A stretch of DNA of 34,728 bases from a virus: positions 1 to 34,728 of IMG/VR virus record IMGVR_UViG_3300025087_000221; one strand, given 5' to 3'. Positions 18,355-34,728 of this stretch are shown here, one piece after another. A program made the position numbers and the translations under genes. The notes beneath the pieces are model-generated. The model was not told where the DNA came from, did no database searches, and worked only from the letters and a program-made list of their open reading frames with translations. The stretch's first letter is position 1. Every line of letters starts with the position of its first letter.

Positions 18355-18363
18355 ACTTCCTCC

Positions 18364-18675
18364 TTATTTCTCCACTACCGCTAAAATATCTTCAAACTTT
18401 AAGAACTGGTACTCGGTGGCGCCAATCTTGACGTCATTTCCGCCCCACTTTTTATACACCACCATGTTTCCTTTTTTTGCCGGCGATTTAATCGTCGCGC
18501 CGTGCTCCGTAACCCAGTCCGCGCCAACCGCGAGAACTGTTCCATATTGAGGCTTTTCATCATGAGAGTCTGGAAGATAAATACCACTGGAGGTCTGCGT
18601 TTGTTTGGACGCCGGCTCAACGAGCACGTATCCAGGCATCGGTTGAAGAGATTTAACAGAAAGATCAGACGACAT
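18364..18675 (-). CDS. groES: GroES-like co-chaperonin (Cpn10)
   Basis: A 103-residue Cpn10 protein starting at 18675 behind AAAGGAGGA. LQPMPGYVLVEPA (about 10-22) is the conserved first strand. The mobile loop reads TQTSSGIYLPD (about 26-36), with the GIYL tripeptide region that contacts GroEL. Then YGTVLAVG (about 43-50), KKGNMVVYKKWGG (67-79), and FLKFEDILAVVE at the end. GroES caps host GroEL; phage versions (as T4 gp31) replace the host cap to fold large capsid proteins. No groEL gene is in the window. Its place inside the structural operon fits a role in virion assembly. Confidence 0.9.
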   Translation of the reverse strand: MSSDLSVKSLQPMPGYVLVEPASKQTQTSSGIYLPDSHDEKPQYGTVLAVGADWVTEHGATIKSPAKKGNMVVYKKWGGNDVKIGATEYQFLKFEDILAVVEK

Positions 18676-18685
18676 ACTTCCTCCT

Positions 18686-19552
18686 TTATGCGGTTGACAC
18701 ACATCTCCACTTGCTCGACACAGAATTCCACACAAACCCAACATCAAGACGTGCCGTTGTGACTGTTGTCGTGGGAAGCGCAACTGTACTTGCTTCAAAA
18801 CTAGCTCCCCAGGTAATCGCTCGCGCCGCTGTTCCCGTAATGGCGATCCACAATGTTTGCCTTTCTGTTGGAGTTCCTGAAAGGTTTGTCGTAAACGAGG
18901 TAATCGCTTCTGTTTGTGCGGTGATCGAGTAAAAATCTACATTATCTGTATTGATGGTTGGCGTTGCGCTTGAGGTAGTCGTTCCAGTGCGAGCAGTATT
19001 ACGTTTATTGGTAAGCGTTTGTGTGTGTGCCTTAAACACAAACTCATCTGCTCCTGTTAACAACGGAAGCGTAACTATTCGATCTGCAGTAAGCTCTGAT
19101 ACTGCAAATACATACTGATGATCTGATGACGTATCATTAATTTGCGGAGTTGTTATCACGGGAGAAGGAAGTGCAAGCCCTGACTTATGTATGCCCGTTT
19201 GCTCATGTGCGATGAGAAGACCATCAATCGCATCATTCATGTCTTTAGCGTTAGGAATGTACTCGACCACTGGGGCGGTGTGTGCGGCATCAGAATTGCC
19301 ATCAGCTCCGCGACCTGTAGACGGAGATGTCCTGACCACAAAGTTTCCACCTGAAACCGTGCCAATAATACGCTCCATTGCACTCGGGGTTGCAGTTCCC
19401 GCAGAGTCAATGCGATCAAAGGTCAGCGTAATTTCTGTATCCGTTGGAAGTCCAGACACAGAGTTCGGAGTAATCGTAACGCCCGTTCCTGTCCCAAACG
19501 TGTTCGTTGTAGACGCATACAGGCTTTTTGTTTTCCGAAAATAGTCTGCCAT
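18686..19552 (-). CDS. Tail-fibre or baseplate-like structural protein
   Basis: A 288-residue protein rich in threonine, serine and alanine with a low-complexity beta pattern. It starts MADYFRKTKSLYAS behind AAGGAGAAAT, with a TATACT box (19568-19573) just upstream. Residues about 150-200 (FAVSELTADRIVTLP, HTQTLTNKRNTA) resemble trimeric tail-fibre shafts, where TLTNKR repeats occur. The C-terminal half reads as a beta-sandwich (AITSFTTNLSGTPTERQTLW) typical of fibre knobs. Adhesion to the host or to the tail is likely. It follows the tail-tubular B-like gene. Confidence 0.7.
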   Translation of the reverse strand: MADYFRKTKSLYASTTNTFGTGTGVTITPNSVSGLPTDTEITLTFDRIDSAGTATPSAMERIIGTVSGGNFVVRTSPSTGRGADGNSDAAHTAPVVEYIPNAKDMNDAIDGLLIAHEQTGIHKSGLALPSPVITTPQINDTSSDHQYVFAVSELTADRIVTLPLLTGADEFVFKAHTQTLTNKRNTARTGTTTSSATPTINTDNVDFYSITAQTEAITSFTTNLSGTPTERQTLWIAITGTAARAITWGASFEASTVALPTTTVTTARLDVGFVWNSVSSKWRCVSTA

Positions 19553-19573
19553 ATTTCTCCTTTTTTAAGTATA

Positions 19574-21526
19574 CTACGTTGCAAGTTTCCATGCTGATGG
19601 AGGATTGACCTTAATCAAATTCCCCTCAACAATAATTCCCTGTAACACATAATCCGCATCATACGCCGTTGATGATAAACTGAATTGAATATCGCGCAAC
19701 TTCTTCCGAACTTGAATATAGTGGGGGTCTGAGGTATCAGAAAATGTTTCCGGTGTTCCTGATGTATCCCCCAATTGAATAGACCCAAGCAAATCCCACC
19801 CTAAACCCGTATTTGCGGTTGTTGAGGTAATGGTTGCTGCGCCTAACGAACTAAACGGTGCGCTTTTTTGTGTTCCTAGTACTTCAAAACTCATTGATCC
19901 ACGAGGATTTCCAAGTTTAATAAATACACGTTTCACTTTCATAAAGTCTTTCCACAATTTTGATACTGGAAGACGACCAGATGTATACTGTGTTGAAAAT
20001 GCGACTCCCAAGTCCCCCCGAATATTCTCTGACATCTCAACAAGACGTGTTCCCGAAGCGGGAACGTACATAAAATGCGTTGTTTTATCAGTATCCGTAT
20101 ACTCAAAGAAACTTTTTGCACCGATTGTCCAATCCACTGTCCAATTCAATCGTTCAAGATCGTAAATAATGGTTCGCGTATTCCCTGTAGTCGTGGTCGG
20201 AACAGAAATAAAAACCTTTGAATCAAAAAAATAGGCACAGACATTTGGCATTAAACTCCCTTGCAATGACCGCCAATACGGGCGAATCTTAACACTGAGT
20301 TCATTCGTTCGGAGAATGCCATAGTAGTTCTTTTCCGGGCCAAGAGAATATACCCCACTCTTATTCGGAAATAAAATATCATTATTCGTTGCAACTACAC
20401 CCTGAATACTATCTGTTCCAAATGATCCAACAATTTTCATTGTAGTAGGAACAGAGAATTGAGTTGTCCCCACTGTTAATGAATCAATCGTAATTTGCCA
20501 AATAGACCCTTTTCCTTCTGGAGTCCGCGCAAAGATCGTTGCAATACCCGACCCCTGACCTGATTGATAATGAGTAACGGCTGTGGGCATTTCTCGACCA
20601 CCTTTTTCAAGATTGACCCAACCCCCTCCATAAAAGTCTGAGAACTTCCCAATGTCCGTCCCCGTTCCCGACCAATACACCATATACAGGTTATTTGGAT
20701 CGTTTGTTGCCCAAATTCTATTTCCCGATACACCCATTGATTTAAACTTTGGAGCCGCCGTCGTGTTTTGAAGGGGAACTTCAACAAAATCATTGATCTG
20801 AATAGACCCATCATCCACAAAAAACGTATTAGGTGTTGCAGCAAGTTTTCTCTCTCGTCCTGATGAATCTGAAATATACACTTGATAGGATGTTGCGCTT
20901 GCTACTGCTCCCCATGACCAAGAAATGCCTTTATCTGTTGCTGCAACCCAAGTATCCCGAGATTTATTGACCGTAAGAGATACCTCACTTGACCCAATCG
21001 TTTCTCCAATGGTATTAATCGCCGTTACTTCTCCATAATACGTATAGGTTCCCGATGATAACCCTGAGGCAACACGAGAAGCCACAAATGACGTAGGAGC
21101 ACTCAGTGATGTATACGTCGTAAGCGTTGATCCATCGTATCGAGCCAAGTTATCAGTTCCATTGGCAATATAAAGATACCCCGCAATCTGCATGAAAAAA
21201 CACTGCACATCTGCGGTAAACGTTGCTCCACTAATTGCAGTCCATGTCCCCCCATCGGTAGATTTGTACGCAACACCTCCAGAAATTGCAATCAGTTCTG
21301 TTGTGCCATCACTTTTGACATATTCTTTTGCTCCATCACACTGATCTCCAAGATCAGTCCCATAATATGCGCTTCCCCAGCGAGGTTTCCACAACCCATC
21401 TTCAACCTGAATAAGATTTGTTGCAGTTTTTGCTTCGTTGGGGGCAAGACGCGCTTCCGCCAACAAGAGATTTGACCCCCCCCGAAAGTCCTTCAATTCA
21501 ATCGCAACGGTATTTTTCTTTTGCAT
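19574..21526 (-). CDS. Tail tubular protein B-like / tail nozzle protein
   Basis: A 650-residue protein directly after the tail-tubular A-like gene, with ATG 21526 one base past that stop. The N-terminus (VAIELKDFRGGSNLL, then ARLAPNEAKTATNLI) and WKPRWGSAYYG are typical of podovirus nozzle/stabilisation proteins. Beta-propeller-like repeats follow (YVKSDGTTELIAIS, DGSTLTTYTSLS). A fibronectin-like segment occurs at about 145-235 (SGTYTYYGEVTAIN, SYQVYISDSSG). In T7-like phages gp12 forms the tail tip that DNA passes through. Order after the A-like gene and overall architecture support the same role here. Confidence 0.75.
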   Translation of the reverse strand: MQKKNTVAIELKDFRGGSNLLLAEARLAPNEAKTATNLIQVEDGLWKPRWGSAYYGTDLGDQCDGAKEYVKSDGTTELIAISGGVAYKSTDGGTWTAISGATFTADVQCFFMQIAGYLYIANGTDNLARYDGSTLTTYTSLSAPTSFVASRVASGLSSGTYTYYGEVTAINTIGETIGSSEVSLTVNKSRDTWVAATDKGISWSWGAVASATSYQVYISDSSGRERKLAATPNTFFVDDGSIQINDFVEVPLQNTTAAPKFKSMGVSGNRIWATNDPNNLYMVYWSGTGTDIGKFSDFYGGGWVNLEKGGREMPTAVTHYQSGQGSGIATIFARTPEGKGSIWQITIDSLTVGTTQFSVPTTMKIVGSFGTDSIQGVVATNNDILFPNKSGVYSLGPEKNYYGILRTNELSVKIRPYWRSLQGSLMPNVCAYFFDSKVFISVPTTTTGNTRTIIYDLERLNWTVDWTIGAKSFFEYTDTDKTTHFMYVPASGTRLVEMSENIRGDLGVAFSTQYTSGRLPVSKLWKDFMKVKRVFIKLGNPRGSMSFEVLGTQKSAPFSSLGAATITSTTANTGLGWDLLGSIQLGDTSGTPETFSDTSDPHYIQVRKKLRDIQFSLSSTAYDADYVLQGIIVEGNLIKVNPPSAWKLAT

Positions 21527-22299: not shown

Positions 22300-25200
22300 T
22301 TATCCTCGTACCGTCAATTTTTTCGGTTTGTATGCTTTGAATTTCAATTTCTTTGGGTTTTTGATCTTGATAGGCTTAAATATTGCGAGCTTAAACTTCT
22401 TATAGGTCGGAACTTTGATGGTAATCTTCTTCGGTTTTTTCCCTTTAATCTTTTTCAATTTCCCATTCAATGTGTAATCAATGTTTTTTAGCACTTTTCC
22501 TTGATCTTCTGTGATGTGCCCCTGATCTACCATTGTTGAAATCACTGCATCAGACAAGATCATTTTGCCATTTAGCGGAGTTCTCCACGCAATCAACTGG
22601 TCGTAAAGTTTTTGTCCTTGTAGTGTTCCCGCAGTATCAAGAACATACGCATATTTTTCTGCATCAGATGCACTTGCAATCGAGTAATATACCGCATCCT
22701 TTGATGAAACACCCAATGTTTTGATTATTTGATCTTGTTGTATTTGAGGCATACCACTCTGGGATAAAGTATTCACTATTTTCCACACCGCTTGTTCTTT
22801 TTGAACCTTCTCAAGATTCGTTGTATCCGGCATTTTTGTTATTTTTCCAATATCAACCGTTTTATAATTTCCCAAATCATCAACATAATCAAATGTCGTT
22901 CCAGAAGAAACGATTGGAGTAAATATAGATGAAGAAGGTGTTCCAGAAACAATCTGTTGTCCTGTGATATTTTTATATTTTTTTCTCGTATCTCCAACTA
23001 AAGCATCAATCGCTTTTACTTTATGTTCATCATCGAGTTGTTGGTATGTAGGAGAAGTTATAAGTGTCTCCAATTTTGGACGGAGAACTTCTCCAACCCC
23101 AGTTTCTAAAGTATTTAACTGGTCAAACGTGAGCTTAACTTTTTGTTTAAGAATGGTTTGATTTATTGTCAGTTTAGAAGGTGTTGCGTCATTTTCTCCC
23201 TGAGCAAGTCGAGAAAATTCTCGTACTATCGCAGTATCAATAGGAGTTTTTGAGTTAAATACATCAAAAAACGCACCCATTCCAGTAGGTTCTTGGGGCA
23301 CAACATTCCCCAACACATCACGTTTGGGTAAAAGCGTATTACGAACACCTGGAATACTTGATTTCATGTACTCAGCCAAAGTATTCGTTTCTCGTTGACT
23401 GGGATCAAATGCTTTTGAAATGTCTTTGACTATATTGGGAATAATAGAATTTGCAGTATTTCCAACATAACTCTTTCCATATCGTTGAGGATCAGTAAGT
23501 GCATTAATCGGTGCAGATATTCCTTGAACAAACGTTTGACTCAATTGGTCTTTTCCTAATCCCAAAGCGTATGTACTCAACGATCCATCGGTTTTTCCCA
23601 TTTCTTCTTGATATTTTGCTCCAGCCAATATCACAAGATTCTGTGGTCCCACAGAATTGATAGACCGCCATTTTCCTCCAATGAAAACAGAATTTGCCTG
23701 TTTCCCTTGTAGTTGCCACAATTGGGATTCTTTTGCATCTTTTGGCTGTCCTGTTATAAGTCCTTTACTCATAAGATATGCTCCTATACCAAAAAGGCCT
23801 GATCCTATGATGCCACGTCCTATTTCTTGTGAGGCTTGTCGTTGAAGTTCTGGAACATTCCCAACTAAAACTTTTCCAGCATCTACTGCTCCTTTAATAA
23901 GACCGATAGGAGAATATGCAAATGTTTTGCCTACGATAGATGATGGAACTCCCGTAAACGGAGCAAGTACTTCTGCGGGGAGTTGAGTGTACCATTTCTC
24001 TCCTGCCCACCGTTTCAATGCACTCGCCAATCCTGAAAGTTTCGTTTTATCATGGAATGTCGCATAGGTTGCATCCGTAGTTGCCGTTGTTAACATCTGT
24101 TCTGTGGGATTTTTCACAAGAGCATCTATTGATTTCCCCGTATTCTTTGAAATTGCTCCCGCCTGATCGTACAATGAACGCGCATATGCAACGTTATAAA
24201 AGGGTTTATCTTCTACAGAAAGTGTACGAAAAACAATGTTTGTATATTTTCGTAATACTTGTTCAATAGGACTCTTTCCCCAATTAATACGCTTGACCTC
24301 AAACTTTGAAATAGGTTGACTCAGATCATACCCAAGCTTAAGCGAGTCCGTGACCTGCTGTCGAGTTTCCTGAGAACCAAACTCTCCCAATCCCCTCAGT
24401 GTTGACGATTGTGTCCGTTGCCCCGTCTTAAGACTTAATAATTTGTCAGCAACCGTTGCAAATGGGTCTTTTGCTATTTCCGCAGCTCCCATAATCGTAT
24501 TCCCTAAAAGGTTTCTTTCATGCGTGCGGAGTGATGTTAACAGTCCCGCCTTCCATGCCGTAATAAATTTATCGGTGAGAGAAGACGGAATAAAATCATT
24601 AACCATATTTGAAAGTTCATTAATGGCAATGTTTTTCTCCCGACTTCCATTTTTTAATGTTCCGATATGTGTAACAGCATCACTCAACATCTTTTGTTGA
24701 TCTCCTGTAAGTTCGGGAATCTTCCGTGTCGCAGTGAGATTATATTTTTTGATCTTTCCCGCAGCAGACAATGCAATTGCTTCTGGACTCATTTTATTTA
24801 AGAGTGAAAACGCCTGTACTCCACGTCCTAACTCTGTTCCATGTTCCGAAAGATTGTTGTACAACGCGGCAGCGGCATCATGATTTCCCGCTTTATCGAG
24901 ATTGATCGCGTGTTGAATTGTTGCAGAGACCTTCTGATCGAGGTTTTTCGTGTTTTTGAAGTCTATGCTCGTTCCTTCATTGAGTAACGCTTGCGCTTCT
25001 CCCATAAGTTGTGTATTTGCTTTTGGTATATATCCACCCTTCACAAGTTTTTTTACACTCCCTGAAACTTTTGGCGTTTCTTGTACAGAAGTTACAAATC
25101 CGCGCTCTTTGACCCTTCGTGGTATACTTCCTTGCGATGAAAGAGATTGTCCTTTCTCTAGTATGGGGTTTATTAGGATTTGTTTTCCTTGTGGGATTAA

Positions 25201-26349
25201 TTTTTTTCCAGATATTTGTATTTTAGGATCTGCCCCTATCCGAGCAAATCCTTCTTGACCAATTTTTTTCCATTCCACTGTTGCTACTGCATTAAATGGT
25301 TTCACATCTTGAATAGAAATCTCACCGCGTTGAATCTTTGTAAATACTTCTAACGGAGTCAAAACTGTTACTTTATTTCCTTGTGTCACTGAGAATTGTG
25401 CAATATCCCCCTCAGGTTGAATGCGTTGTGTTCCCGCTGCCTCAAACCCTGTAATTTTCTTTCCCCATAGTTTACGTTGTCCGACTTGCGGTTGTGTCCC
25501 AATCTTACGTTCTCTTTGATATTGATTGTTCGCTAAATCATAAATTTTGTTTATTTTTCCACTGTCTTGGTTAACCGCAGCGCGAAGTCGCTCGTTATAT
25601 CGCCCTTGAAACAAGTTTGACCCCACATGAGTTATGCCCGCAAGTCCCGCCCCCACAACTCCACCCCCAACCGTTCCAGTAATTCCTTGTTGTGCAGCAA
25701 GTCCAAGTTGTTGAAGAATGGGATTGTTTTCTCCTTCTTTCAAACCAGAAAGAACGCCATACGATCCACCAAACGCCGCTCCACCTTTTGCTCCTGTTAT
25801 CAGTGCGTTTTTAAGTGATTGTTTCCCTGCTTGTGTGATAAATTTTTTCCCAAGACTCGGGAGACCAAGCAGAGACGCATCGAGAAGTCCTGTTCCAATA
25901 TCTCCAATAGCCCCTAACGCTCGACCCGCATTAACTTGATCTCCACGAATTCTTGTCCCAACTTGATCTCCAAGTCGTGTTGACCCGCGCACAACCGCAA
26001 TAGGAGCATTTGCAATACCCCGAACAATCCCCAAAGGCATCTGTGCAACAGTTTGGAGTGCTCCGCCAACCACCGGAGTCGTATATGCTCGATTCCCAAT
26101 CGCATTTGTCCATGACTGAAATGGTTGAAACAGTGCCTTTCCAACCCCCGTATCTTGGAAGTTGGGAAGATTTTGAAGTGTATGTTGCTCAAATCGTTGC
26201 AGTCCCGCTCCCGCGCGTAAAGCGATATTGGGAGTATAACCATAGGTATTATCATTCGTCCCAGAAATATATCGAATAATCGGGTTGTTTTGGACCGTGT
26301 GTGAACTTTTAGTAAAAAGATTTTTCGCAAGATCGAGAAGGGAAGCTAT
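22300..26349 (-). CDS. Large internal virion/ejection protein candidate, apparent AUA start
   Basis: A 1,349-residue frame, the largest in the window. The only strong ribosome site (GGAGG, five bases spacing) precedes ATA at 26347-26349. The 92 codons between it and the first usual start (GTG at 26073, no ribosome site) are good coding sequence (LLDLAKNLFTKSS, YGYTPNIALRAGAG). Glycine/alanine-rich hydrophobic segments occur near both ends of the first half and near residue 850 (GSGLFGIGAYLM), suggesting membrane insertion. The last ~55 residues are a lysine-proline repeat. Position before the tail genes and great length suggest an ejected core protein with a DNA-translocation role, like T7 gp15/gp16. 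No transglycosylase motif is visible. Confidence 0.7.
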   Translation of the reverse strand: MASLLDLAKNLFTKSSHTVQNNPIIRYISGTNDNTYGYTPNIALRAGAGLQRFEQHTLQNLPNFQDTGVGKALFQPFQSWTNAIGNRAYTTPVVGGALQTVAQMPLGIVRGIANAPIAVVRGSTRLGDQVGTRIRGDQVNAGRALGAIGDIGTGLLDASLLGLPSLGKKFITQAGKQSLKNALITGAKGGAAFGGSYGVLSGLKEGENNPILQQLGLAAQQGITGTVGGGVVGAGLAGITHVGSNLFQGRYNERLRAAVNQDSGKINKIYDLANNQYQRERKIGTQPQVGQRKLWGKKITGFEAAGTQRIQPEGDIAQFSVTQGNKVTVLTPLEVFTKIQRGEISIQDVKPFNAVATVEWKKIGQEGFARIGADPKIQISGKKLIPQGKQILINPILEKGQSLSSQGSIPRRVKERGFVTSVQETPKVSGSVKKLVKGGYIPKANTQLMGEAQALLNEGTSIDFKNTKNLDQKVSATIQHAINLDKAGNHDAAAALYNNLSEHGTELGRGVQAFSLLNKMSPEAIALSAAGKIKKYNLTATRKIPELTGDQQKMLSDAVTHIGTLKNGSREKNIAINELSNMVNDFIPSSLTDKFITAWKAGLLTSLRTHERNLLGNTIMGAAEIAKDPFATVADKLLSLKTGQRTQSSTLRGLGEFGSQETRQQVTDSLKLGYDLSQPISKFEVKRINWGKSPIEQVLRKYTNIVFRTLSVEDKPFYNVAYARSLYDQAGAISKNTGKSIDALVKNPTEQMLTTATTDATYATFHDKTKLSGLASALKRWAGEKWYTQLPAEVLAPFTGVPSSIVGKTFAYSPIGLIKGAVDAGKVLVGNVPELQRQASQEIGRGIIGSGLFGIGAYLMSKGLITGQPKDAKESQLWQLQGKQANSVFIGGKWRSINSVGPQNLVILAGAKYQEEMGKTDGSLSTYALGLGKDQLSQTFVQGISAPINALTDPQRYGKSYVGNTANSIIPNIVKDISKAFDPSQRETNTLAEYMKSSIPGVRNTLLPKRDVLGNVVPQEPTGMGAFFDVFNSKTPIDTAIVREFSRLAQGENDATPSKLTINQTILKQKVKLTFDQLNTLETGVGEVLRPKLETLITSPTYQQLDDEHKVKAIDALVGDTRKKYKNITGQQIVSGTPSSSIFTPIVSSGTTFDYVDDLGNYKTVDIGKITKMPDTTNLEKVQKEQAVWKIVNTLSQSGMPQIQQDQIIKTLGVSSKDAVYYSIASASDAEKYAYVLDTAGTLQGQKLYDQLIAWRTPLNGKMILSDAVISTMVDQGHITEDQGKVLKNIDYTLNGKLKKIKGKKPKKITIKVPTYKKFKLAIFKPIKIKNPKKLKFKAYKPKKLTVRG

Positions 26350-26358: not shown

Positions 26359-27567
26359 CTATCCTATAATCCGACCAAACATATCTCTTTTTCTGGTATC
26401 TTGTGCAGTCCCCATTCCTATCGCAGGTCCACTAAATGGAATACTTCCCCCACCCGTTGCGCTAAGTTGTGGCATCGTGGCCTGAAATTGTCCTGTTTGG
26501 GCAAGATTCGCTTTCAACTGAGTAAAGTTCTCCGAATGATTCATCGCCCAAGTATCGAGTGCAGATTTCTGCGCCACCGCTTGTTGTTGCACCTGTTGTG
26601 CCATTTGCATCGCATAACTCAATGCTTGTTGCGACTTTTGTAATGCTGCTTGGCCCTTTTGTGTTCGGAGGGCATTTTGTGCTTCTGCAAACCATTGGGA
26701 AATCTGTTGTAACTGACTATTTTTTGAAAGTTCAAGATTCTTTGTTTCCGTATCATAGGTATTCTTCAACTTAAACATATTCTGGTCATACTGTTGCTGA
26801 ATATCCCCACGGTTTTGATTCCCCATCTTTGTTAACGCATATGAATACTGTTGTGCCGCACTGGAATCTGATGCTCCCCGTGTTCCTAAATACGCATTCC
26901 CCTGTTGCCATGACTGAGTTAAATTATTTGCAAGATCACGAAGAGATTTTTCCCGAGAACCTGATAAATCCTGTTGCCCTTGTCCATACTGGCTATTGAC
27001 CGTGTTCAGTCCTTGATTAAACGTATTATTCGCAATCTGCTCTTGTGAACCACGTTGCGTATCCAGTCCCCCCATTTGTGCATCAAGATTTCGGAAGTAT
27101 TCATCGTATCCTGCATTCAGTTGTTGCTCCGCAGGAGATGGACCACCTCCACCATACCGTCCCGTTCCCCCCGTTTCAGCAAGAATGGTCTGCCATGATT
27201 TTTGAGCAGGATTTTGGTCTCCATAGTCTCCAGAATTGACCATTGTACTTAAACTTGTTGGCGCAGGTTGCTGCTGTGTTTGCGTTGTTGTTGTCGTTGG
27301 AGTTGGATTTGGGTATCCCTGAGTACTCTGAGCACCTTCATATGGACTCGTACTTAACGCCCCATCATACGCATTTGATTGAATATACGGATTTTTTAAT
27401 CCTCCAGAACTATTGTACTGAGTATTGGTTGTGGGACCGCCCGCGATCCACTCGGAAATTCCAAAATCTGGTGCTCCTATTTTTTTAAATGGAGTAGACA
27501 CAACGTCCAGCGTATTTCCCGCTGCCTGTCTCCACAAATTTGGATCTAACCATCCTGTATATGCCAT
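26359..27567 (-). CDS. Glutamine-rich internal virion protein candidate
   Basis: A 402-residue protein behind AAGGAGG. The N-terminus (YTGWLDPNLWRQAAG) leads into a proline/threonine/glutamine linker (about 85-110). From about 140 to 370 it is a long glutamine/alanine/asparagine-rich coiled coil. The C-terminus is glycine-rich and ends RKRDMFGRIIG. Such proteins are ejected core or tail components in podoviruses. Its TAG stop is in the same frame as the following giant gene, four codons before that gene's ATA start. Confidence 0.65.
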   Translation of the reverse strand: MAYTGWLDPNLWRQAAGNTLDVVSTPFKKIGAPDFGISEWIAGGPTTNTQYNSSGGLKNPYIQSNAYDGALSTSPYEGAQSTQGYPNPTPTTTTTQTQQQPAPTSLSTMVNSGDYGDQNPAQKSWQTILAETGGTGRYGGGGPSPAEQQLNAGYDEYFRNLDAQMGGLDTQRGSQEQIANNTFNQGLNTVNSQYGQGQQDLSGSREKSLRDLANNLTQSWQQGNAYLGTRGASDSSAAQQYSYALTKMGNQNRGDIQQQYDQNMFKLKNTYDTETKNLELSKNSQLQQISQWFAEAQNALRTQKGQAALQKSQQALSYAMQMAQQVQQQAVAQKSALDTWAMNHSENFTQLKANLAQTGQFQATMPQLSATGGGSIPFSGPAIGMGTAQDTRKRDMFGRIIG

Positions 27568-27581
27568 ATTATCCCTCCTTA

Positions 27582-27590
27582 TGATATACT
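27582..27590 (+). promoter_or_regulatory. Extended -10 promoter (TGATATACT), leaderless
   Basis: TG-A-TATACT ends six bases before the ATG at 27597. No clear -35 is visible, but the TGn extension can replace it. The transcript would begin at the start codon. Confidence 0.5.
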
Positions 27591-27596
27591 GTGTCT

Positions 27597-27779
27597 ATGC
27601 TTTTCTTCAAAAAACTTCTCATCTTCCTTGTCCTATTCCCTTTTGTTTTATATCCATTCTTTTGGGTGTACTATATTCTTCACCCTGAAAAAGAACCTGG
27701 ACTCCTTCCTGTTTCTATCGCGAGTCTCTTTTTATTTTGTTTTCTTCTCCCCATTGTTCATAAACTCCATACACGATAA
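27597..27779 (+). CDS. Rightward two-helix membrane protein inside the late block
   Basis: A 60-residue, very hydrophobic protein with two predicted membrane helices (about 6-28 and 39-56) joined by HPEKEPG, with a basic tail. It runs opposite to all genes from 14895 to the right edge. It ends one base from the end of the leftward 27781-28008 gene. A small membrane protein with its own promoter inside a late operon recalls superinfection-exclusion or accessory 'moron' genes, but this is inference. The strand choice rests on the filled gap, the promoter box and the hydrophobic pattern. Confidence 0.5.
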   Translation: MLFFKKLLIFLVLFPFVLYPFFWVYYILHPEKEPGLLPVSIASLFLFCFLLPIVHKLHTR

Positions 27780-27780
27780 T

Positions 27781-28008
27781 TTACTTCATCATCATTTCTG
27801 CTTGTTTCATCATCTTTTCCCCTTTTGCAATCATCGCCTTCCCCTTTATCATCATTGCTTTCGGACTCATCGTTTCTTTCCCCGATTCTTTTTTCTCTGA
27901 CTTCATTTTGGGTTCATAAAACTTTGGGTCAGAACTCGATAACGAGGGGTTCATGGTTCCTCGTTTTTTTGCAAGATATTGTGCTAAACCTTTTGGGAGT
28001 GATCCCAT
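27781..28008 (-). CDS. Small methionine/lysine-rich protein
   Basis: A 75-residue protein starting at 28008 behind AAAGGAGGC. The second half (about 47-75) is an unusual run of methionine, lysine and glutamate (PKAMMIKGKAMIAKGEKMMK) that would form one amphipathic helix. It is the first gene of the late structural run and is preceded by a terminator hairpin. It could be a scaffold-like or DNA-binding virion component; no family is known to me. Confidence 0.6.
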   Translation of the reverse strand: MGSLPKGLAQYLAKKRGTMNPSLSSSDPKFYEPKMKSEKKESGKETMSPKAMMIKGKAMIAKGEKMMKQAEMMMK

Positions 28009-28026
28009 ACACGCCTCCTTTAATAC

Positions 28027-28069
28027 AAAAAAGACACGCATATTTGGCTCAAAAGCCATCTATCGTGTC
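28027..28069 (-). terminator. Intrinsic terminator between sugar operon and late genes
   Basis: On the minus strand GACACG/CGTGTC (28033-28038 with 28064-28069), extended by ATA/TAT and an apical GGCT-CAAA-AGCC type hairpin, precedes six T (28027-28032). It closes the glycan operon 19 bases before the next start codon. Confidence 0.75.
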
Positions 28070-28082
28070 TCAAGACGTAATC

Positions 28083-29210
28083 TTATACGTTGGTGACAAA
28101 AACAGAGTACTCCTCTTTGACGGGACTGTCAAATACCAATTGAAAAAACGCTACATACCGTTTCACGTTATCTTCCATTTGCCAAAGATCGAACACCGTC
28201 TGAAAAGCCGCCCACCCCATCTTTTCTCGAAGATCAACAGAATCTACAAGCGTTTTCAGACAGGTATACCATTCCTCAGCCGTTGACGCTAAAAAGCCGT
28301 TTTTCCCATGATTGACAAGCTCCTGGTATTGTCGAATATCCTGATAGACTCCGGGTTTCATCGTTGAACTCATCTCTAAGAACTTAATCCCCGACTTTGC
28401 TTTACTGTATGGTGAATCAACCAATGGAACCGCAAAGATGTCAACCTTTCCCAACTTTTCCGGCATCATAGTGACCCACGTATAGAGATTTTGGTGTCCA
28501 AACGCTGTGGTATAGCGCATTCCGAACTTCTTTTTGAACTGCTGAATCATCGCCCCAATTGTATACAACTCAACATTGGGGTATTCAAGCATCAGTTTCT
28601 CAATCCCCGCAATAAAGTTCCGTTCTCCCAAGTCATTAAAGTGCGAACTTGATCCAAAATACCCAATCCGTACCGTTGGAGCTATTCGAAGTTTTGCTCT
28701 CCAAGTATAGAGTTTGAGATCAATATAATTAGGAAGAACAACAATCTTTTCATGACGTTTTTGTGTGTAATGGGCAATCCCATTTTTGAGATACGAATTT
28801 GTACACGTAATAAAATCTACTTCCCGACAAATATCTGTAACAACTGCTCGGCCCTCTGACCCTAGAGCATACGTCGAGTATGATGAATTATCTCCTTGAA
28901 TCTCCCAGATCAGATCATCAATATCAAGGACAATTTTTTTCTTGTATTTGCGAAACAACATTCCCACAAGTGAAAAATCCCACGGAAGCGTCAAATAGTT
29001 AATGTAAAGGATGTCATACTCCTGGGCGTAGCGATCCCAATCTCTCCATGTTAATGGTTTCTTCAATGTATTGGTATAAAAATGAACCTTAAATCTTTTG
29101 TCTTTTGCGAGTTCCTTCATCGGAAGTATAAGACGAACATAATCAACGCCAGGAGTGACTGTCTTAGAACAATGTGTGGGAAAGCAAAAAATCTTTATCG
29201 TCCTAGCCAT
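28083..29210 (-). CDS. Glycosyltransferase family 4-like (GT-B fold)
   Basis: A 375-residue protein starting at ATG 29210, eight bases inside the previous gene. The N-terminal domain includes TKTVTPG-type acceptor-side loops and VLDIDDLIWE (about 92-101), often seen in WsaF/GT4-like enzymes. The C-terminal domain has VRIGYFGSSSHFNDL (about 181-195), LEYPNVELYTIG, then VDIFAVPLVDSPYSKAKSGIKFLEM (about 280-304). This last segment carries the E-x7-E-like sugar-nucleotide pocket with K in SKAKSGIKFLE. It likely transfers a sugar from a nucleotide donor in the cytoplasm. It is the last gene of the glycan operon. Confidence 0.85.
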   Translation of the reverse strand: MARTIKIFCFPTHCSKTVTPGVDYVRLILPMKELAKDKRFKVHFYTNTLKKPLTWRDWDRYAQEYDILYINYLTLPWDFSLVGMLFRKYKKKIVLDIDDLIWEIQGDNSSYSTYALGSEGRAVVTDICREVDFITCTNSYLKNGIAHYTQKRHEKIVVLPNYIDLKLYTWRAKLRIAPTVRIGYFGSSSHFNDLGERNFIAGIEKLMLEYPNVELYTIGAMIQQFKKKFGMRYTTAFGHQNLYTWVTMMPEKLGKVDIFAVPLVDSPYSKAKSGIKFLEMSSTMKPGVYQDIRQYQELVNHGKNGFLASTAEEWYTCLKTLVDSVDLREKMGWAAFQTVFDLWQMEDNVKRYVAFFQLVFDSPVKEEYSVFVTNV

Positions 29211-29967
29211 GTTGCGTATCCTCAATAAAATAATCAAGTCTCTTTGAGAAGATCTCTCTCAATTCCTGATAATGAAACCGGAAGTTGAGGGGATCAAAGT
29301 CGCTGCCTTGTCCGAAATCAATCCCCTCAAGTCCAGGTTCATACTTCTTTAGTTCTCGCAAAGGATGACCACCAAAATAGCGCACAGGACACCCACACAG
29401 ACGTGCAATATCCATCATGGCAGAAATAGGATCGTAACAATACAGAGTTTGGCACTCGTTTAATACGAGTGCTAACGCCGCTTGGTCAGAAGCAAACACA
29501 CGCGTCAGTTCAAGAGAGTCAGATGGATGTTTGTGCTGATTGACTCCTTTCCCAACCAAATAACACGTTTTTGTACGTTTTTTCTTCAAATCCTTAAAAA
29601 GATGCAAGTTTATCACTGGACAAAACAAAATATGGTCATCATCTACTCCAAATGAGTCATACAAACGAGAAAATACATAGATTTTATCTGTTTTATCAAA
29701 ACTGGTTGGACCAGGAACACCGCCCGTTGCCATGACTCCCGGGGTTTGGAGAATATACCGCACCACCGTGTCTGCTTTTAGTCCATTCCCATGGTATATT
29801 TCTGGATATACTCCAATAAATGGAACATCAAACCGACTATTTATGAGCGCGATCTGACCTTTCGTTTCCAACCATGACTGAAATGCGTACATCACACGAA
29901 TGCCCCCACTCGTAATGTCATACGGTGGTGATGCAATACTATATGGTTTGTACTTATATGATGTCAT
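29203..29967 (-). CDS. Glycosyltransferase-like protein
   Basis: A 254-residue protein. YDITSGGIRVMYAF (about 16-29) is the glycine-rich N-terminal loop of GT4/rhamnosyltransferase-like proteins. YVFSRLYDSFG, CYLVGKGVNQH (about 135-145) and CQTLYCYDPISAMMDIARLCGCPVRYFGG (about 170-198) read as the donor-side Rossmann half. It is shorter than complete GT-B enzymes and may be a partial or specialised form. It overlaps both neighbours (8 and 14 bases). A longer GTG start at 29976 is possible. Confidence 0.65.
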   Translation of the reverse strand: MTSYKYKPYSIASPPYDITSGGIRVMYAFQSWLETKGQIALINSRFDVPFIGVYPEIYHGNGLKADTVVRYILQTPGVMATGGVPGPTSFDKTDKIYVFSRLYDSFGVDDDHILFCPVINLHLFKDLKKKRTKTCYLVGKGVNQHKHPSDSLELTRVFASDQAALALVLNECQTLYCYDPISAMMDIARLCGCPVRYFGGHPLRELKKYEPGLEGIDFGQGSDFDPLNFRFHYQELREIFSKRLDYFIEDTQHG

Positions 29968-30715
29968 AACACACACTTTTCCCGTAGTTTCCTACGAAGG
30001 TTGCGAATCCGATGACTTGATCGGAAAATCCATACGACTTCATCTTTTCAGGTGTGAGTTTTGGCATATTCGCAGGTCCTTTAGCGGCATGATAACATTT
30101 GACTTGTTCTCCCCGGCACATCACCTTATCCCCGTTCATCTTAAACTCTGTTTCACGTCCCAATGATTTACACCCGTAATACTCTGTGTCTTTGTCAAAG
30201 ATTTTGAGTTTCCACTCAGGATGTTCGTACACCACAAGGTTCAATGTATCATTTTCGGCACACATATATTTCCAGTTATCCCGAAGACTTCGCGCCATCC
30301 ATATGTCCCAAAACTCGGGAATACGCGAAGCAACAAGTCCTGCTTGAAGGTACATCTCATCAGTAATGCCCTCAATGTGCCGATTTTCATAGTCATTGAG
30401 ATTCATGACAGACCCAACGTCATACTCCTTCGTAAAGACCGCATCTAAACGTCCAAGAAAAATGGTATCTATATCAACATTCACCACAAGTTCATAGTGA
30501 TCGGTTAAAAGTTTGGCAAAAGCAGGTTTAGCATTAAGCCAATTAATACCAGTTGATATACCATCTCCGATGATTTGACTTACCATATCTTGTCGAAAAA
30601 TAACAAGAGGAATATCTGGGTGAAACCGTTTGAATGAATTAATCATTTGAGGAGCACCACAGGGATCGTAATAGTTATCAGAAACAAAACTATAAAAACA
30701 AACGGGCTTTTTCAT
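29954..30715 (-). CDS. GT-A fold glycosyltransferase (GT8-like)
   Basis: A 253-residue protein. The N-terminal strand CFYSFVSDNYY (6-16), KPAFAKLL (63-70), and the metal-binding DID at 81-83 in LVVNVDIDTIFLGRL mark a GT-A sugar transferase. YLQAGLVASRIPEFWDIW (about 121-138) and ENDTLNLVVYEHPEW (about 151-165) match the acceptor region, and CYHAAKG (about 214-220) the second metal-ligand histidine. An AGGAG site precedes ATG 30715, which overlaps the FkbM gene by four bases. Substrate unknown. Confidence 0.8.
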   Translation of the reverse strand: MKKPVCFYSFVSDNYYDPCGAPQMINSFKRFHPDIPLVIFRQDMVSQIIGDGISTGINWLNAKPAFAKLLTDHYELVVNVDIDTIFLGRLDAVFTKEYDVGSVMNLNDYENRHIEGITDEMYLQAGLVASRIPEFWDIWMARSLRDNWKYMCAENDTLNLVVYEHPEWKLKIFDKDTEYYGCKSLGRETEFKMNGDKVMCRGEQVKCYHAAKGPANMPKLTPEKMKSYGFSDQVIGFATFVGNYGKSVCYDII

Positions 30716-31344
30716 ATTCTCCTGGCTGTAAACTTTGAATGATGATGATCCACATACACACGAAATCCAAGCGTTTGAAGGATAGGAATAGGATCGTAAT
30801 TGTGATATTCCCCAATGATTATATGAATCATCGGTGCAATAGACGCAAATGATACGCTTTCGAAAATTTCTTGTTCTGCGCCTTCTACATCAATCTTGAG
30901 AACATCAATATAATCAAGCCCCTCTTCATCAACAAATTCTTTGATACTCTTTGTGGGGATCATTGTGTGAAAAGGTGACGATACGGGATGTAAATCCATG
31001 TGCCAATTCCCTTGAGACCCATCGGACTCAGCAAAAAAAGCACGATTTCCACCACTCCCCGATATACCATACTGTCGAGGTTTTATTTTTGTCAATCCAT
31101 TTGCTTCAATCGTTGCATTCAAACATGCAATATTTTGTGCAGATGGTTCAATCGCATAAATCACTCTCGCATGATCGTATATCCACAAACTAAAAGTTCC
31201 GATATTTGCTCCAAGATCAACAACCACAAGATCATCAAAAAGATCATGGTATTCATTTCCCACAATCACCTCGTTAATAAACCGAGGATTTTCATTGAAT
31301 ACTTCAATCGTTCTTCCGCCGATCATCACTGAGGTGTGGTTCAT
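30712..31344 (-). CDS. FkbM-family methyltransferase (first paralogue from left)
   Basis: A 210-residue SAM-dependent enzyme starting at ATG 31344, which overlaps the next gene's stop as ATGA. Motif I is VVDLGANIGTFSLW (41-54), the acidic ribose-binding motif is IYAIEPSAQN (about 62-71), and YIDVLKIDVEGAE (about 140-152) is the FkbM signature. FkbM enzymes O-methylate sugars or polyketides. Together with the second copy at 31341-32009 it suggests two methylation positions on the glycan. Confidence 0.9.
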   Translation of the reverse strand: MNHTSVMIGGRTIEVFNENPRFINEVIVGNEYHDLFDDLVVVDLGANIGTFSLWIYDHARVIYAIEPSAQNIACLNATIEANGLTKIKPRQYGISGSGGNRAFFAESDGSQGNWHMDLHPVSSPFHTMIPTKSIKEFVDEEGLDYIDVLKIDVEGAEQEIFESVSFASIAPMIHIIIGEYHNYDPIPILQTLGFRVYVDHHHSKFTARRI

Positions 31345-32009
31345 TTTGTAAATGCGATCACACACGCACTACACGTGTAGCGTCTCGCCTTGTATCCCAT
31401 CTTGATTAAATGATTCACGTGTTGGGTAAAGGTTGGAAAATGAAACTCAATTTCAAGACAATCAATCATTTTCGAGGCTTCTTCAAAATCTTTTGATGGT
31501 AAAATCAAATCTTCTCCTCCCTCCACATCCAGTTTCATAAAATCAACATGAGTAATGCCCGCTTCTTTGAAGAAACTCATGAGACTCTTTGTTTTGACTG
31601 TTTCTTTGATCCCATCTTTATAGTCTACGACAAGCGAGTTACACGTCAGATTTGACGGATTGTGCGTAAACGTCATTTTTCCATCTTTATCCGCAATTGC
31701 ATAATTAAAAATTTCTACATTATCCCATCCATTAAACTCTTTGTTTTTCTTCAATGCTTCAAAATGTTCTTGAGATGGTTCAACCGCGTAGACTTTTCCA
31801 TAATTACGAAAATGCTGAACCGTCACCCCGATATTTGCACCAATATCTACAATCACAGGATGTGTTTTCGTGTTTTCAAGGACAGTCATAATGTCCATAT
31901 AAATCCCATCAAAGTAAATTTCGTTATAAATATACGGAATAAACAATTCATCAAACTTAATAGGCTTCTCTGGTGTTCCTTTGGGATAAAACAAAGCGGC
32001 TAATGGCAT
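31341..32009 (-). CDS. FkbM-family methyltransferase (second paralogue)
   Basis: A 222-residue enzyme with VIVDIGANIGVTVQHF (about 52-67), VYAVEPSQEHFEAL (about 74-87) and VDFMKLDVEGGEDLI (about 156-170), the full FkbM pattern. An AAGGATTGT site precedes the ATG. Sequence differs clearly from the neighbouring copy, so they are not a recent duplication. Cysteines at the end (CSACVIAF) are unusual. It probably methylates a different hydroxyl on the same glycan. Confidence 0.9.
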   Translation of the reverse strand: MPLAALFYPKGTPEKPIKFDELFIPYIYNEIYFDGIYMDIMTVLENTKTHPVIVDIGANIGVTVQHFRNYGKVYAVEPSQEHFEALKKNKEFNGWDNVEIFNYAIADKDGKMTFTHNPSNLTCNSLVVDYKDGIKETVKTKSLMSFFKEAGITHVDFMKLDVEGGEDLILPSKDFEEASKMIDCLEIEFHFPTFTQHVNHLIKMGYKARRYTCSACVIAFTK

Positions 32010-32018
32010 ACAATCCTT

Positions 32019-32528
32019 TCAGCGTTTCATGCTAATAAATGATGGGCTTGACTCCGAGAGTAAGGTATGAAGCATGGAAACAACCTCGTCAGTGGTCTGT
32101 GGATAGTATTGCGTGATATTGGGCATACTTTTGAGAAAGTCTTGCGCGGCATATCCCATATGGCTTGGTCCATCATGTTTATAATCATCATCCCGACCAC
32201 CACCAACAAGTTTGACATTGAGCTTCTCATGGTTGATGTAGAGGCTAATGGTTTCCGCGGCCCGCAGATAAAACGAAGTAATGGTATAGACAACTGGAAT
32301 CTTTCCAGCAAGTGCGAGTCCCACTGCAATATCAAGCAAACACTGTTCCGCAGCTCCCGTATTGATGAACCGATCAGAAAAATCATTACGAATCTTGTCA
32401 AATTGTCCCCACCCCAAATCTCCTGTAAGAACAACAATCTTAGGATTATCAATCATCGCATTGTACAGGACTCCAGCAAAGAAACCTCGCTGGGATTGAT
32501 GAAAGTCTTTTGGGTCTACAGGTTTCAT
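32019..32528 (-). CDS. Transketolase-like subunit, pyrimidine-binding domain
   Basis: A 169-residue protein consisting of only the PYR domain of a thiamine-diphosphate enzyme. VLTGDLGWGQF (33-43), RFINTGAAEQCLLDIAVGLALAG (53-75) with the cofactor-activating glutamate E61, YLRAAETI, LVGGGRDDDYKHDGPSHMGYAAQDF and the PNITQYYPQT region all match transketolase. The usual C-terminal third domain (about 120 residues) is absent. It pairs with the PP-domain subunit at 32854-33471. Expected chemistry is transfer of a two-carbon ketol unit, here perhaps onto a sugar nucleotide. Confidence 0.85.
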   Translation of the reverse strand: MKPVDPKDFHQSQRGFFAGVLYNAMIDNPKIVVLTGDLGWGQFDKIRNDFSDRFINTGAAEQCLLDIAVGLALAGKIPVVYTITSFYLRAAETISLYINHEKLNVKLVGGGRDDDYKHDGPSHMGYAAQDFLKSMPNITQYYPQTTDEVVSMLHTLLSESSPSFISMKR

Positions 32529-32857
32529 GCTTTCCTTACCGAGAAACGAGTACCACGCTTAATGTTTCGTGCTTTCGTCTTCTCTGCAATCTCATATATA
32601 TGTTCTTTCATTACATCTCCCATTGTTGGCTCTTGAGGAAAGATAAGGTCATAAGTAGACTGGGTAATATGTCCGAGCTTTTTGTACTTTTTATAGTCTG
32701 AATACAGTCGGCTACCCTCTGCATAGGTAATGACAATGGGATCATCAAAACCGAGATTGAGAGCTTTTCGTTTTCTTTGTACTTCGTAAATAATTTCGTT
32801 CTTCCACCCTTTCAAAAATAAATCTTCTGTGATACGAGTATCGAGTGTGAGCATCAT
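32525..32857 (-). CDS. Unknown protein between the two transketolase subunits
   Basis: A 110-residue charged protein with no recognisable domain (ITEDLFLKGWKNEIIYEV, DDPIVITYAEGSR, ARNIKRGTRFSVRK). It overlaps both transketolase subunit genes by four bases, so all three are made together. Such placement suggests a partner or adaptor of the split enzyme, possibly replacing part of the missing C-terminal domain, but sequence gives no direct proof. A second ATG lies directly after the first. Confidence 0.7.
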   Translation of the reverse strand: MMLTLDTRITEDLFLKGWKNEIIYEVQRKRKALNLGFDDPIVITYAEGSRLYSDYKKYKKLGHITQSTYDLIFPQEPTMGDVMKEHIYEIAEKTKARNIKRGTRFSVRKA

Positions 32858-33471
32858 AATCCAACCTCCCGCGCTTTTTCTTTGGTATCAATTTTCACAT
32901 AATGTGCGCCATTCCCTTGAAGCCAGTCAGGGTAATTAAACATATTGGCTTTCACAATCAAAGTGGGGTAAAACCACTGTAATCGTTTTTCAAGAACTTC
33001 AATATCAATTGCTCCATATGCACCAAATCCATTGCAAATCACTGCGACACGAAGATTCTCAAGTCGGCAATCACCGGCAACCCGGAGCGACTCCCACACA
33101 CCTCCTTCCGCACATTCTCCATCTGACAATACGACATAGACATTCCGCGTTCTATCCGCCAGAGCCATGCCCACCGCAATACCAATTCCATGCCCTAGTG
33201 ACCCCGTAGATGCCCAAATTCCCCGTTCCATGTCCCTGTCGGGATGCGTGCCATACTTTGTTACCAAATCCTCTGCATCTCCAAATCCCCATGCCTCTAA
33301 CACGCAGTATTGAGCAAGTCCCATGTGTCCTGATGAAAGAATAAAAGGTTCATTTGGCTGTTTAACCTTATAGATCGCTTCGATGGGACCAACAGCAATG
33401 AGACACGAGCCAATATGCGAGAGTCCATGTCTATACGACAACTCCAATACCCGATGTTCTAACTGACTCAT
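32854..33471 (-). CDS. Transketolase-like subunit, TPP (PP) domain
   Basis: A 205-residue protein with the thiamine-diphosphate domain of transketolase. LSSGHMGLAQYCVLEAWGF (45-63), YGTHPDRD (73-80), IWASTGSLGHGIGIAVGMALA (85-105) are typical. The cofactor motif starts SDGECAEGGVWE (116-127), where the first base of the usual GDG is serine, and ends at N147 (AVICNGFG). At 205 residues it is shorter than ordinary N-terminal transketolase subunits (about 270). It overlaps both neighbours by four bases in the operon. Confidence 0.88.
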   Translation of the reverse strand: MSQLEHRVLELSYRHGLSHIGSCLIAVGPIEAIYKVKQPNEPFILSSGHMGLAQYCVLEAWGFGDAEDLVTKYGTHPDRDMERGIWASTGSLGHGIGIAVGMALADRTRNVYVVLSDGECAEGGVWESLRVAGDCRLENLRVAVICNGFGAYGAIDIEVLEKRLQWFYPTLIVKANMFNYPDWLQGNGAHYVKIDTKEKAREVGL

Positions 33472-34286
33472 ACGAATGTCTCCAGCGGTGTATGCAGTAG
33501 CACTTGTGTTAATCCTTCTTCAAGGGTGTATCGTGGAGTCCACCCGAGCGAGCGAACCTTTGTCGTATCAGCAACCCAATGATCGCTATCGTACCGATGA
33601 AGCGGTGGAATCACTGATTTTTCTGTTGTTTTATTCAAAAGTTTCTCAATGATTTCTACAAGTGCTTCATTTGATGTTTGTTTTTCCGTACCAAAATTAT
33701 AGATTTCCCCTGGATGTGGTTGAACAGACAATAAAAGAAGTCCGTCAATAAAATCATCTACGTGGATAAAATCATGGACACCAGGAGCAACAAGAAGTTT
33801 TTTGTGTTTCCGGATACTGCGGATAATCGTGGGAATAAAACGATGATCAAGTTCATGCACTCCATACAGACTAAATGGACGCGCAACCATCACCGGAACA
33901 CCGTATGACCGTGCGTATACCTGACATAAAAGAGATGCCGCTCCCTTTGTTGCTTCGTACATCGTCATCGGATCGAGAAAATCTGTCTCAGTCATCGGGT
34001 GATCTTTGCGTCCATATTCTGAGGAAGACCCAATCGCAATAAAGGCCTTGAGATGTGGAATCGAGCGAGATGCTTCTAAAAGCCGGTGGGTAAGAAGAAT
34101 GTTTGACTCCACCATGGTCTTTTCTTCATAAATCTCCCCCGCACAATGAAAAATATAGTCTGGTTGAAACTCAATCAGTCCATCCATGCTTTCATCTCGA
34201 GAAAAAAGGTACAGATTACCATGCAGTCTTTCACGAAGATGTGTTCCGAGAAACCCGTTTCCTCCCGTGATAAAGATTTTGGACAT
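33468..34286 (-). CDS. NAD-dependent sugar epimerase/dehydratase
   Basis: A 272-residue extended short-chain dehydrogenase acting on nucleotide sugars. GGNGFLG (8-14) binds NAD. FIAIGSSSEYG (about 82-92) holds the catalytic serine, and Y110-x3-K114 (MYEATKGAA) is the catalytic pair. ARPFSLYG (about 133-140), HDFIHVDDFIDGLL (about 169-182) and YNFGTEKQTSN follow in the usual order. It is slightly short for the family (about 310). The start at 34286 lacks a ribosome site but has TATACT six bases upstream, so the operon's first gene seems leaderless. It probably supplies the keto- or epimerised sugar for the transketolase-like pair. Confidence 0.9.
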   Translation of the reverse strand: MSKIFITGGNGFLGTHLRERLHGNLYLFSRDESMDGLIEFQPDYIFHCAGEIYEEKTMVESNILLTHRLLEASRSIPHLKAFIAIGSSSEYGRKDHPMTETDFLDPMTMYEATKGAASLLCQVYARSYGVPVMVARPFSLYGVHELDHRFIPTIIRSIRKHKKLLVAPGVHDFIHVDDFIDGLLLLSVQPHPGEIYNFGTEKQTSNEALVEIIEKLLNKTTEKSVIPPLHRYDSDHWVADTTKVRSLGWTPRYTLEEGLTQVLLHTPLETFV

Positions 34287-34292
34287 GGGTAT

Positions 34293-34298
34293 AGTATA
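34293..34298 (-). promoter_or_regulatory. -10 box (TATACT) of the sugar operon, leaderless
   Basis: On the minus strand TATACT is followed by exactly six bases and then the ATG at 34286. A good -35 is not visible at 16-18 bases. Another TATACT lies at 34351-34356. Confidence 0.45.
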
Positions 34299-34338
34299 CT
34301 CTATCTCCATCTGTTTGTACTTGAAGTATTATTTTGTG

Positions 34339-34728
34339 TTAGATGGAATTAGTATACTTCCTTTTTCCATCAATCTCGGTATGTATTCCTTTAATTTCTG
34401 CATGGTCTTGATTTCTCGTTGCTTCAATAAGATTTTCACGCATATCTCGTGATTCTTTGGATTCATGGGTAATTTGATACCGTGAACGTTTTATGGCGAT
34501 TCGTTCCTCATTATTCGATGCTCGTACATACATCCGATCAAGTTCCTTCATATCTGCCTCTCGTCCCAATCGTGCGTAATTCTTAAATGTCTTGGATGAA
34601 AAGTTAGACTGTGTTCGAAAAACCTCATGGCAAATCATACACTGATAGCGTGTACTAGTTCCTGTGTGTCGTTGAGTCCATAAAAACCGATGAAGATTCC
34701 CCGAAACAGGCCAATGGCCTGTTTTCCG
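34339..34728 (-). CDS. Zinc-knuckle and helical protein, 5' end outside window
   Basis: The open frame continues without a stop to the right edge, so the 5' end is missing. The visible 129 residues start HWPVSG, then the RYQCMICHEVFR knuckle (about residue 33 of the visible part), after which a long charged helix dominates (ARLGREADMKELDRMYVRAS, then ESRDMRENLIEATRNQ). A shorter start at 34638 would cut the C-x2-C motif. Related zinc-plus-coil proteins are seen in phage structural regions, but function is unknown. Confidence 0.6.
   Translation of the reverse strand, partial: RKTGHWPVSGNLHRFLWTQRHTGTSTRYQCMICHEVFRTQSNFSSKTFKNYARLGREADMKELDRMYVRASNNEERIAIKRSRYQITHESKESRDMRENLIEATRNQDHAEIKGIHTEIDGKRKYTNSI

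Follow-up and report, generated by a model that had tools for sequence, protein, structure and literature searches.

We describe here a gene cassette located on the minus strand of a 34,728-base virus record of the IMG/VR collection (IMGVR_UViG_3300025087_000221), the whole of which is referred to below as the window. The first gene of the cassette (33468..34310, 280 aa) encodes an extended short-chain dehydrogenase/reductase (SDR) of the nucleoside diphosphate (NDP)-sugar epimerase or 4-keto-sugar reductase type; an alternative start at an internal ATG (position 34286 instead of 34310, product MSKIFITGGNG...) is equally plausible. Further on lie two genes for the separate halves of a minimal split transketolase, i.e. 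a PP subunit (32854..33471, 205 aa) and a PYR subunit (32019..32528, 169 aa). At the PP/PYR junction there is a gene for a 110-aa protein, named here X (32525..32857), which is a relative of the C-terminal region (DUF5915) of isoleucyl-tRNA synthetase (IleRS) and a lineage-specific insert. Four-base overlaps occur at each of the SDR/PP, PP/X and X/PYR boundaries. This layout agrees with a preliminary description of the same DNA, which had listed an epimerase gene first, followed by genes for the PP protein, the 110-aa protein and the PYR protein. Based on the observations presented below, we suggest that PP and PYR probably constitute a functional minimal split transketolase that serves glycan synthesis.

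PP matched the Pfam domain Transketolase_N (PF00456) with 43.6 bits (cut-off 22) and PYR matched Transket_pyr (PF02779) with 76.8 bits (cut-off 27). In a sequence search, the nearest solved structure of both proteins was the split-gene transketolase of Carboxydothermus (6yak/6yaj). The third transketolase domain, Transketolase_C (PF02780; TKC), was not found anywhere in the record by a search that was positive in 14 of 14 control genomes, and PYR terminates, with a conserved arginine, at the position where this domain would start. Six PP residues, H19, H49, H76, D117, E122 and N147, are invariant in 50 of 50 sequences, and a seventh, H190, is present in 49 of them. In PYR, R14, E61 and H123 are invariant in all 45 minimal sequences compared, while D119 and R169 are found in 44. 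As mapped via alignments, H49, D117, N147 and E61 are presumably the thiamine pyrophosphate (TPP) and Mg2+ ligands and the catalytic glutamate of transketolase. R14 and the C-terminal R169 are assumed, from the same alignments, to stand where transketolase binds the substrate phosphate.

The AlphaFold model of the window's PP (pLDDT 95.4, pTM 0.91) was superposed on chain AAA of 6yak with 204 of its 205 residues (Z 22.7, root-mean-square deviation (rmsd) 2.2). The region covered in that chain is 257 residues long; the PP core is therefore complete, even though loops and one unit have been lost. In a relative, L138, the PP and PYR genes share one frame and are separated by 126 bases; with the stops read as residues, they gave a 413-aa single chain (pLDDT 88.6, pTM 0.89). 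This model fitted residues 17-475 of human transketolase with Z 26.4 and an rmsd of 2.9 over 369 residues, and it stops where TKC would begin. The fit to DXS was far poorer (rmsd about 17), but the tether between the two halves is artificial. The model supports a transketolase-type packing of PP and PYR. The matches to Pfam, the fold and the conservation of the active-site residues, including the catalytic glutamate, thus bear out the earlier proposal of a genuine split transketolase from which the third domain is absent.

PYR has 147-196 aa in the minimal family (median in viruses 163.5 aa), compared with 285-370 aa in the full-size split relatives. The median PP length is 208 aa in viruses versus 241.5 aa in the cells of Patescibacteria and Omnitrophota. 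The cellular PP keeps a stretch of some 22 residues, marked by the motif VDGH, which is absent from the viral PP, including that of the window; judging by this alignment, the viral PP is without a beta-alpha unit that the cellular PP retains. The viral enzyme has thus been reduced twice, since it has no TKC domain and its PP domain is shortened. Both frames are open despite synonymous saturation relative to related sequences, with dN (nonsynonymous divergence) of about 0.2-0.5; as the synonymous sites are saturated, no dN/dS ratio could be obtained.

Scans of viral contigs revealed 128 relatives of PYR and 107 of PP, which, after removal of near-duplicates, gave 92 distinct viral PP/PYR pairs. 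The two genes are adjacent or overlapping in 71 of the 92 pairs, a 4-base overlap being the commonest arrangement (35 cases), and an SDR gene lies within 1.5 kb upstream in 73 of the 83 pairs that could be scored. By its Pfam matches, conserved residues and folds (the Z values given above), the pair belongs to the TPP-dependent transketolase superfamily. It is not a canonical transketolase (EC 2.2.1.1), which consists of PP, PYR and TKC. The two adjacent PP and PYR genes of split-gene transketolases are characteristic of most viral pairs, the window pair being separated by X, and the TKC domain that such enzymes carry in the C-terminal subunit is missing. In a tree of 123 PYR domains, the 107 minimal ones are set apart (SH-aLRT 98) from the split transketolases of full size. 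Under that rooting, the cellular copies nest within the viral diversity, with weak deep support. Two short viral PYR proteins (L185 and L186; 159-160 aa) grouped with the full-size split transketolases, which suggests, at the sequence level, that the TKC domain was lost a second time, independently. The nearest matches in the phage collection were human-gut and Listeria-associated fragments with 26-43% identity, some of which may be bacterial contamination.

The SDR matched the Pfam family Epimerase (120 bits, 1.1e-34), and its best solved relatives were 6zl6, annotated as an 'epimerase domain-containing protein', and 2pk3, a GDP-6-deoxy-D-lyxo-4-hexulose reductase. In an alignment of seven relatives the NAD motif GxxGxxG and the YxxxK motif are invariant and the acidic residue beside the catalytic serines is not conserved. 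As this acidic residue varies, a 4,6-dehydratase is disfavoured, and we infer that the SDR is an epimerase, oxidase or reductase.

The operon extends past PYR to position 28083 and contains two FkbM-family methyltransferase genes and three more glycan genes, all on the same strand. The first FkbM gene (31341..32009; TIGR01444, 93.6 bits) keeps its place in the relatives and is a conserved member of the viral cassette, while the second (30712..31365; TIGR01444, 77.3 bits) is present in a subset of them. They are followed by 'GTa' (29954..30715), a putative glycosyltransferase with a DxD motif and homologues in 52 viral loci, by 'GTb' (29203..29976), a conserved cassette protein of 257 aa with homologues in 44 viral loci, and by a GT4-type glycosyltransferase (28083..29237; Glyco_trans_1_4, 31.9 bits; phrog_7162 glycosyltransferase, 70.7 bits). 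GTa gave no Pfam match, and its profile similarity to WbbM was weak (E 0.013). For GTb no match was obtained in Pfam, NCBIfam or PHROG, and none that was convincing in the PDB; it possibly represents an undescribed glycosyltransferase family. The motifs SGGIRVMYGLYGW and YPEI..GNP are shared by GTb across the 44 cassette loci. The nearest relatives of the window share the order SDR-PP-PYR-FkbM(-FkbM)-GTa-GTb-GT4. The sugar-modification context envisaged in the preliminary description is upheld, and it is conserved. The record also encodes a terminase, a head-tail adaptor, an SU10-type adaptor and an M23 peptidase, and the presence of these genes places the cassette in the genome of a tailed phage.

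Cellular copies were found as well. A genome scan yielded 30 loci, the minimal ones being nearly all from Patescibacteria (Collierbacteria, Levybacteria, Woesebacteria, Roizmanbacteria, Shapirobacteria and others) or Omnitrophota. On the three chromosomes examined, their neighbours are genes for GT2, GT4, methyltransferases and Wzy_C. Of the 374 genomes in the class to which the Collierbacteria genome belongs, 22 gave a full-length PYR match above 200 bits in ORFs (open reading frames) of 161-190 aa; in two further genomes the matches look like fragments, and the remaining genomes have full-size PYR proteins scoring at most 130 bits. Of 19 genomes that carry a minimal PYR, 16 have a Transketolase_C match elsewhere as well, mostly in ORFs of 310-660 aa. 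As most carriers thus also hold an ordinary transketolase, the minimal enzyme is specialised rather than housekeeping.

One of the cellular loci lies in a chromosome of the Patescibacteria and is an integrated prophage with the cassette. On a 487-kb contig of Roizmanbacteria UBA1450, uvrB, uvrA and uvrC are followed by a gene for a solute-binding protein, tRNA-Leu, and genes for a glycosyltransferase and an integrase. After the integrase gene come those for an SDR, PP, a TylF-like methyltransferase, PYR, the small and large terminase subunits and a portal protein (L206, positions 8692-19901, and L207). FkbM- and GTa-like genes and a gene for a lectin-domain protein are located further on in the same prophage. 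It is this prophage that links the cassette phages to Patescibacteria hosts, and we believe the chances to be better than even that the window's phage, too, has a host among the Patescibacteria. A Microgenomates genome (G131) that encodes a terminase 38% identical to that of the window has a region resembling a prophage, which includes a head-tail connector; the 20 kb read there contained no cassette.

We propose that PP and PYR would assemble into an alpha2beta2 heterotetramer that binds TPP where PP and PYR meet, like the split-gene enzyme of Carboxydothermus, and would move a two-carbon ketol (glycolaldehyde) unit taken from a ketose or from hydroxypyruvate. The SDR would make or use a keto-sugar, to which the ketol unit would be added or from which it would be removed, and the FkbM methyltransferases and glycosyltransferases would finish the product and attach it to a virion or host-surface glycan. 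That the enzyme builds a two-carbon-branched nucleotide sugar is a tentative proposal, to which we assign a little under an even chance. In the branched-sugar thiamine-dependent enzymes (YerE-like, alpha-KADH2, the split transketolase of miharamycin) the acceptor is the ketone of a nucleotide sugar or keto-sugar; for the viral pair such an acceptor would be suggested by genomic context, i.e. the SDR gene upstream in 73 of 83 pairs. The wider proposition, according to which the virus-dominated two-domain transketolases accept a nucleotide-sugar ketone and make two-carbon-branched sugars, while the cellular copies are phage-derived, is speculative and, taken as a whole, rather unlikely.

Several points weigh against this interpretation. 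The activity, the TPP binding and the complex of PP and PYR are predicted. The single-chain model represents not the window pair but the relative L138, whose stop codons were translated as residues, and AlphaFold is familiar with many transketolases. Nor is the TPP site by itself visible in the single-chain arrangement, since transketolases form this site between PP of one chain and PYR of another. PP E119 is replaced by alanine in 6 of 50 sequences. The substrate-phosphate ligands of human transketolase are R318, S345, H416 and R474, and of these only the two arginines seem to be matched (R14 and R169). The position of the phosphate-contacting histidine is occupied in the minimal PYR family by Gly111, with Arg112 adjoining; the enzyme may therefore act on something other than an ordinary sugar phosphate. 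Finally, FkbM, GTa, GTb and GT4 genes occur within 5 kb downstream in only 17-20 of the 58 distinct viral contigs that could be scored.

Among the other explanations, the one that survives best is that the enzyme never touches a nucleotide sugar and instead makes sugar-phosphate precursors (e.g. sedoheptulose 7-phosphate or pentose phosphates), which would feed heptose or pentose glycans or boost the nucleotide supply of the host. The transketolase fold and the conservation of the two putative phosphate-binding arginines are in its favour, and a precedent for virus-borne transketolase-type genes is provided by the prasinovirus MpV-SP1, which has two transketolase genes (PMC5454428) but, unlike the phage described here, infects an alga. 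On the other hand, no further gene of the pentose-phosphate pathway was identified in the window, an SDR of the NDP-sugar type is constantly paired with the enzyme, most host genomes have a separate transketolase and the residues G111 and R112 are altered. We therefore regard the production of such precursors as unlikely, if still worth serious consideration.

It is very unlikely that in glycan synthesis PP and PYR act as a TPP-dependent lyase or decarboxylase, with a chemistry nearer to that of two-subunit enzymes such as sulfopyruvate decarboxylase. The latter likewise has separate minimal PP and PYR subunits and no third domain, and a weak match to TIGR03846 (15.3 bits) was recorded; however, both sequence and fold are far closer to the transketolase branch. 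Equally little can be said for the view that PP and PYR are non-catalytic, decaying remnants of a captured transketolase. The TKC domain and the PP beta-alpha unit are indeed gone, and the PYR frame is broken in the relative L011, but the same domain boundaries are found in about 92 diverged viral pairs, the active-site residues are invariant, both frames remain open under saturated synonymous change, and the predicted PP fold is confident and complete. Such decay is thus highly improbable.

The 110-aa protein X requires separate comment. The preliminary description was correct in placing it between PP and PYR, but the protein is not without recognisable relatives, as its residues 3-60 match DUF5915 (PF19302; 30.3 bits, cut-off 27). 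The matches to X in the PDB were to IleRS chains only (E about 1). In 59 Patescibacteria genomes almost all DUF5915 matches are located in ORFs of IleRS length (840-1010 aa), and for this reason X, a 110-aa ORF that does not belong to a complete synthetase, has the appearance of a stand-alone copy of the C-terminal segment of IleRS. Its own function is perhaps related to tRNA.

Among the relatives of the split transketolase, X was found only in this virus and in one contig that is 100% identical to it. No phage match was obtained by tblastn at E 0.01, the 50 related viral records contained no match to DUF5915, and the closest relatives, L003 and L004, are without X. The gap at the same place in L004 was considered as a possible remnant of X, and this was rejected, since a different, small zinc-finger-like ORF is located there. 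The inserts at the PP/PYR junction differ from virus to virus (L004, L022, L047, L067, L090, L170, L099, L172 and others) and include genes for Cpn10-like, hexapeptide transferase, YopX, NinG, TylF, FkbM and glycosyltransferase proteins and zinc-finger-like ORFs, as if this junction were a hot spot for passenger genes. As X is absent from the relatives and unrelated inserts occur at the same junction, comparison of the sequences indicates that it is a recent passenger and not a conserved subunit. X would thus have inserted at a tolerant junction and be dispensable for catalysis. The earlier suggestion of X as an accessory subunit in a three-protein enzyme with PP and PYR is hardly credible: the position of X between them, with 4-base overlaps on both sides, makes co-translation probable, yet X is missing from every relative apart from the identical contig, the junction holds Cpn10, YopX, NinG, hexapeptide, TylF or FkbM genes in other contigs, and X resembles the IleRS C-terminus, not a domain of a TPP enzyme. 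Nor is the order epimerase-PP-X-PYR conserved, PP and PYR being for the most part direct neighbours.

Parts of such a system are already on record, namely split transketolases, partial transketolases of SAR11, prasinovirus transketolases, an ORF of phage CP21 and nucleotide-sugar genes of phages. The Carboxydothermus hydrogenoformans enzyme ChTK (6yaj/6yak), an alpha2beta2 protein, likewise consists of separate PP and PYR polypeptides without a PP-PYR linker (PMC7661550). It differs from the viral pair in that ChTK-C holds a TKC domain (residues 164-312), ChTK-N is about 100 residues longer and, unlike the minimal pair, ChTK is the sole transketolase of its organism (PMC7661550). In the biosynthesis of miharamycin and amipurimycin, an oxidoreductase and a split transketolase have been proposed to add a hydroxyacetyl unit to a keto-sugar (PMC12247030). 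This resembles our cassette in that an oxidoreductase providing a ketone is combined with a split transketolase adding two carbons, which is a proposal and not proven; those enzymes, compared here by description only, belong to streptomycete secondary metabolism and their function is unproven in vitro. The hypervariable glycan region of Fonsibacter (SAR11) encodes transketolases with one or two of the three domains (PMC6811365), located, as in the cassette, among glycosyltransferase, methyltransferase and epimerase genes; they differ in being cellular and in not having been described as an enzyme family, and this likeness, too, is by description only. Phages of Patescibacteriota carry O-antigen nucleotide-sugar genes such as galE, rmlB and rmd (PMC12911398); they share the sugar-nucleotide genes and, probably, the kind of host with the window, while the main text of that report mentions no transketolase.

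The best fold match in BFVD (TM 0.52) was the 'putative transketolase' CP21_041 of Campylobacter phage CP21 (192 aa; L208, positions 25189-25767). Unlike the window's proteins, it gave no match to Transketolase_N and is not surrounded by a sugar cassette. It showed a weak match to TPP_enzyme_C only, and may represent a further phage-borne TPP-domain protein in reduced form. In the literature searched, largely without subscription journals, no account was found of the two-domain viral family, its cassette or the Roizmanbacteria prophage, and the queries 'split transketolase' and transketolase combined with phage, FkbM and epimerase gave no match, in keeping with the earlier remark that no described phage system of this composition was known to its author.

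A textbook enzyme of central metabolism is thus kept by viruses at about 375 residues in two genes and tied to sugar tailoring, and at least one of the carrier viruses is a prophage of a Patescibacteria host that is hard to study. If the enzyme is active, transketolase can dispense with its third domain and with the PP beta-alpha unit, small proteins become available for testing the proposed ketone-acceptor chemistry, and an unknown glycan in the contact between Patescibacteria and their phages is indicated. Should it indeed accept ketones, it would be the smallest transketolase known to us and, to our knowledge, the first natural ketone-accepting transketolase shown to work.

Three further observations concern the phage genome itself. 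The contig IMGVR_UViG_3300009285_003455 (L123, L043) is 100% identical to positions 1-2727 and 26857-34728 of the window and bridges both window ends via 2,016 bases that are absent from the window. Because one contig joins both ends in this way, a circular or circularly permuted genome of about 36.7 kb is probable. A 195-aa gene is cut short in the window, its end being the ORF at 34339-34728. Two DNA methyltransferase genes (phrog_359 and phrog_757) are located on the plus strand at 9773-10426 and 12861-13514.

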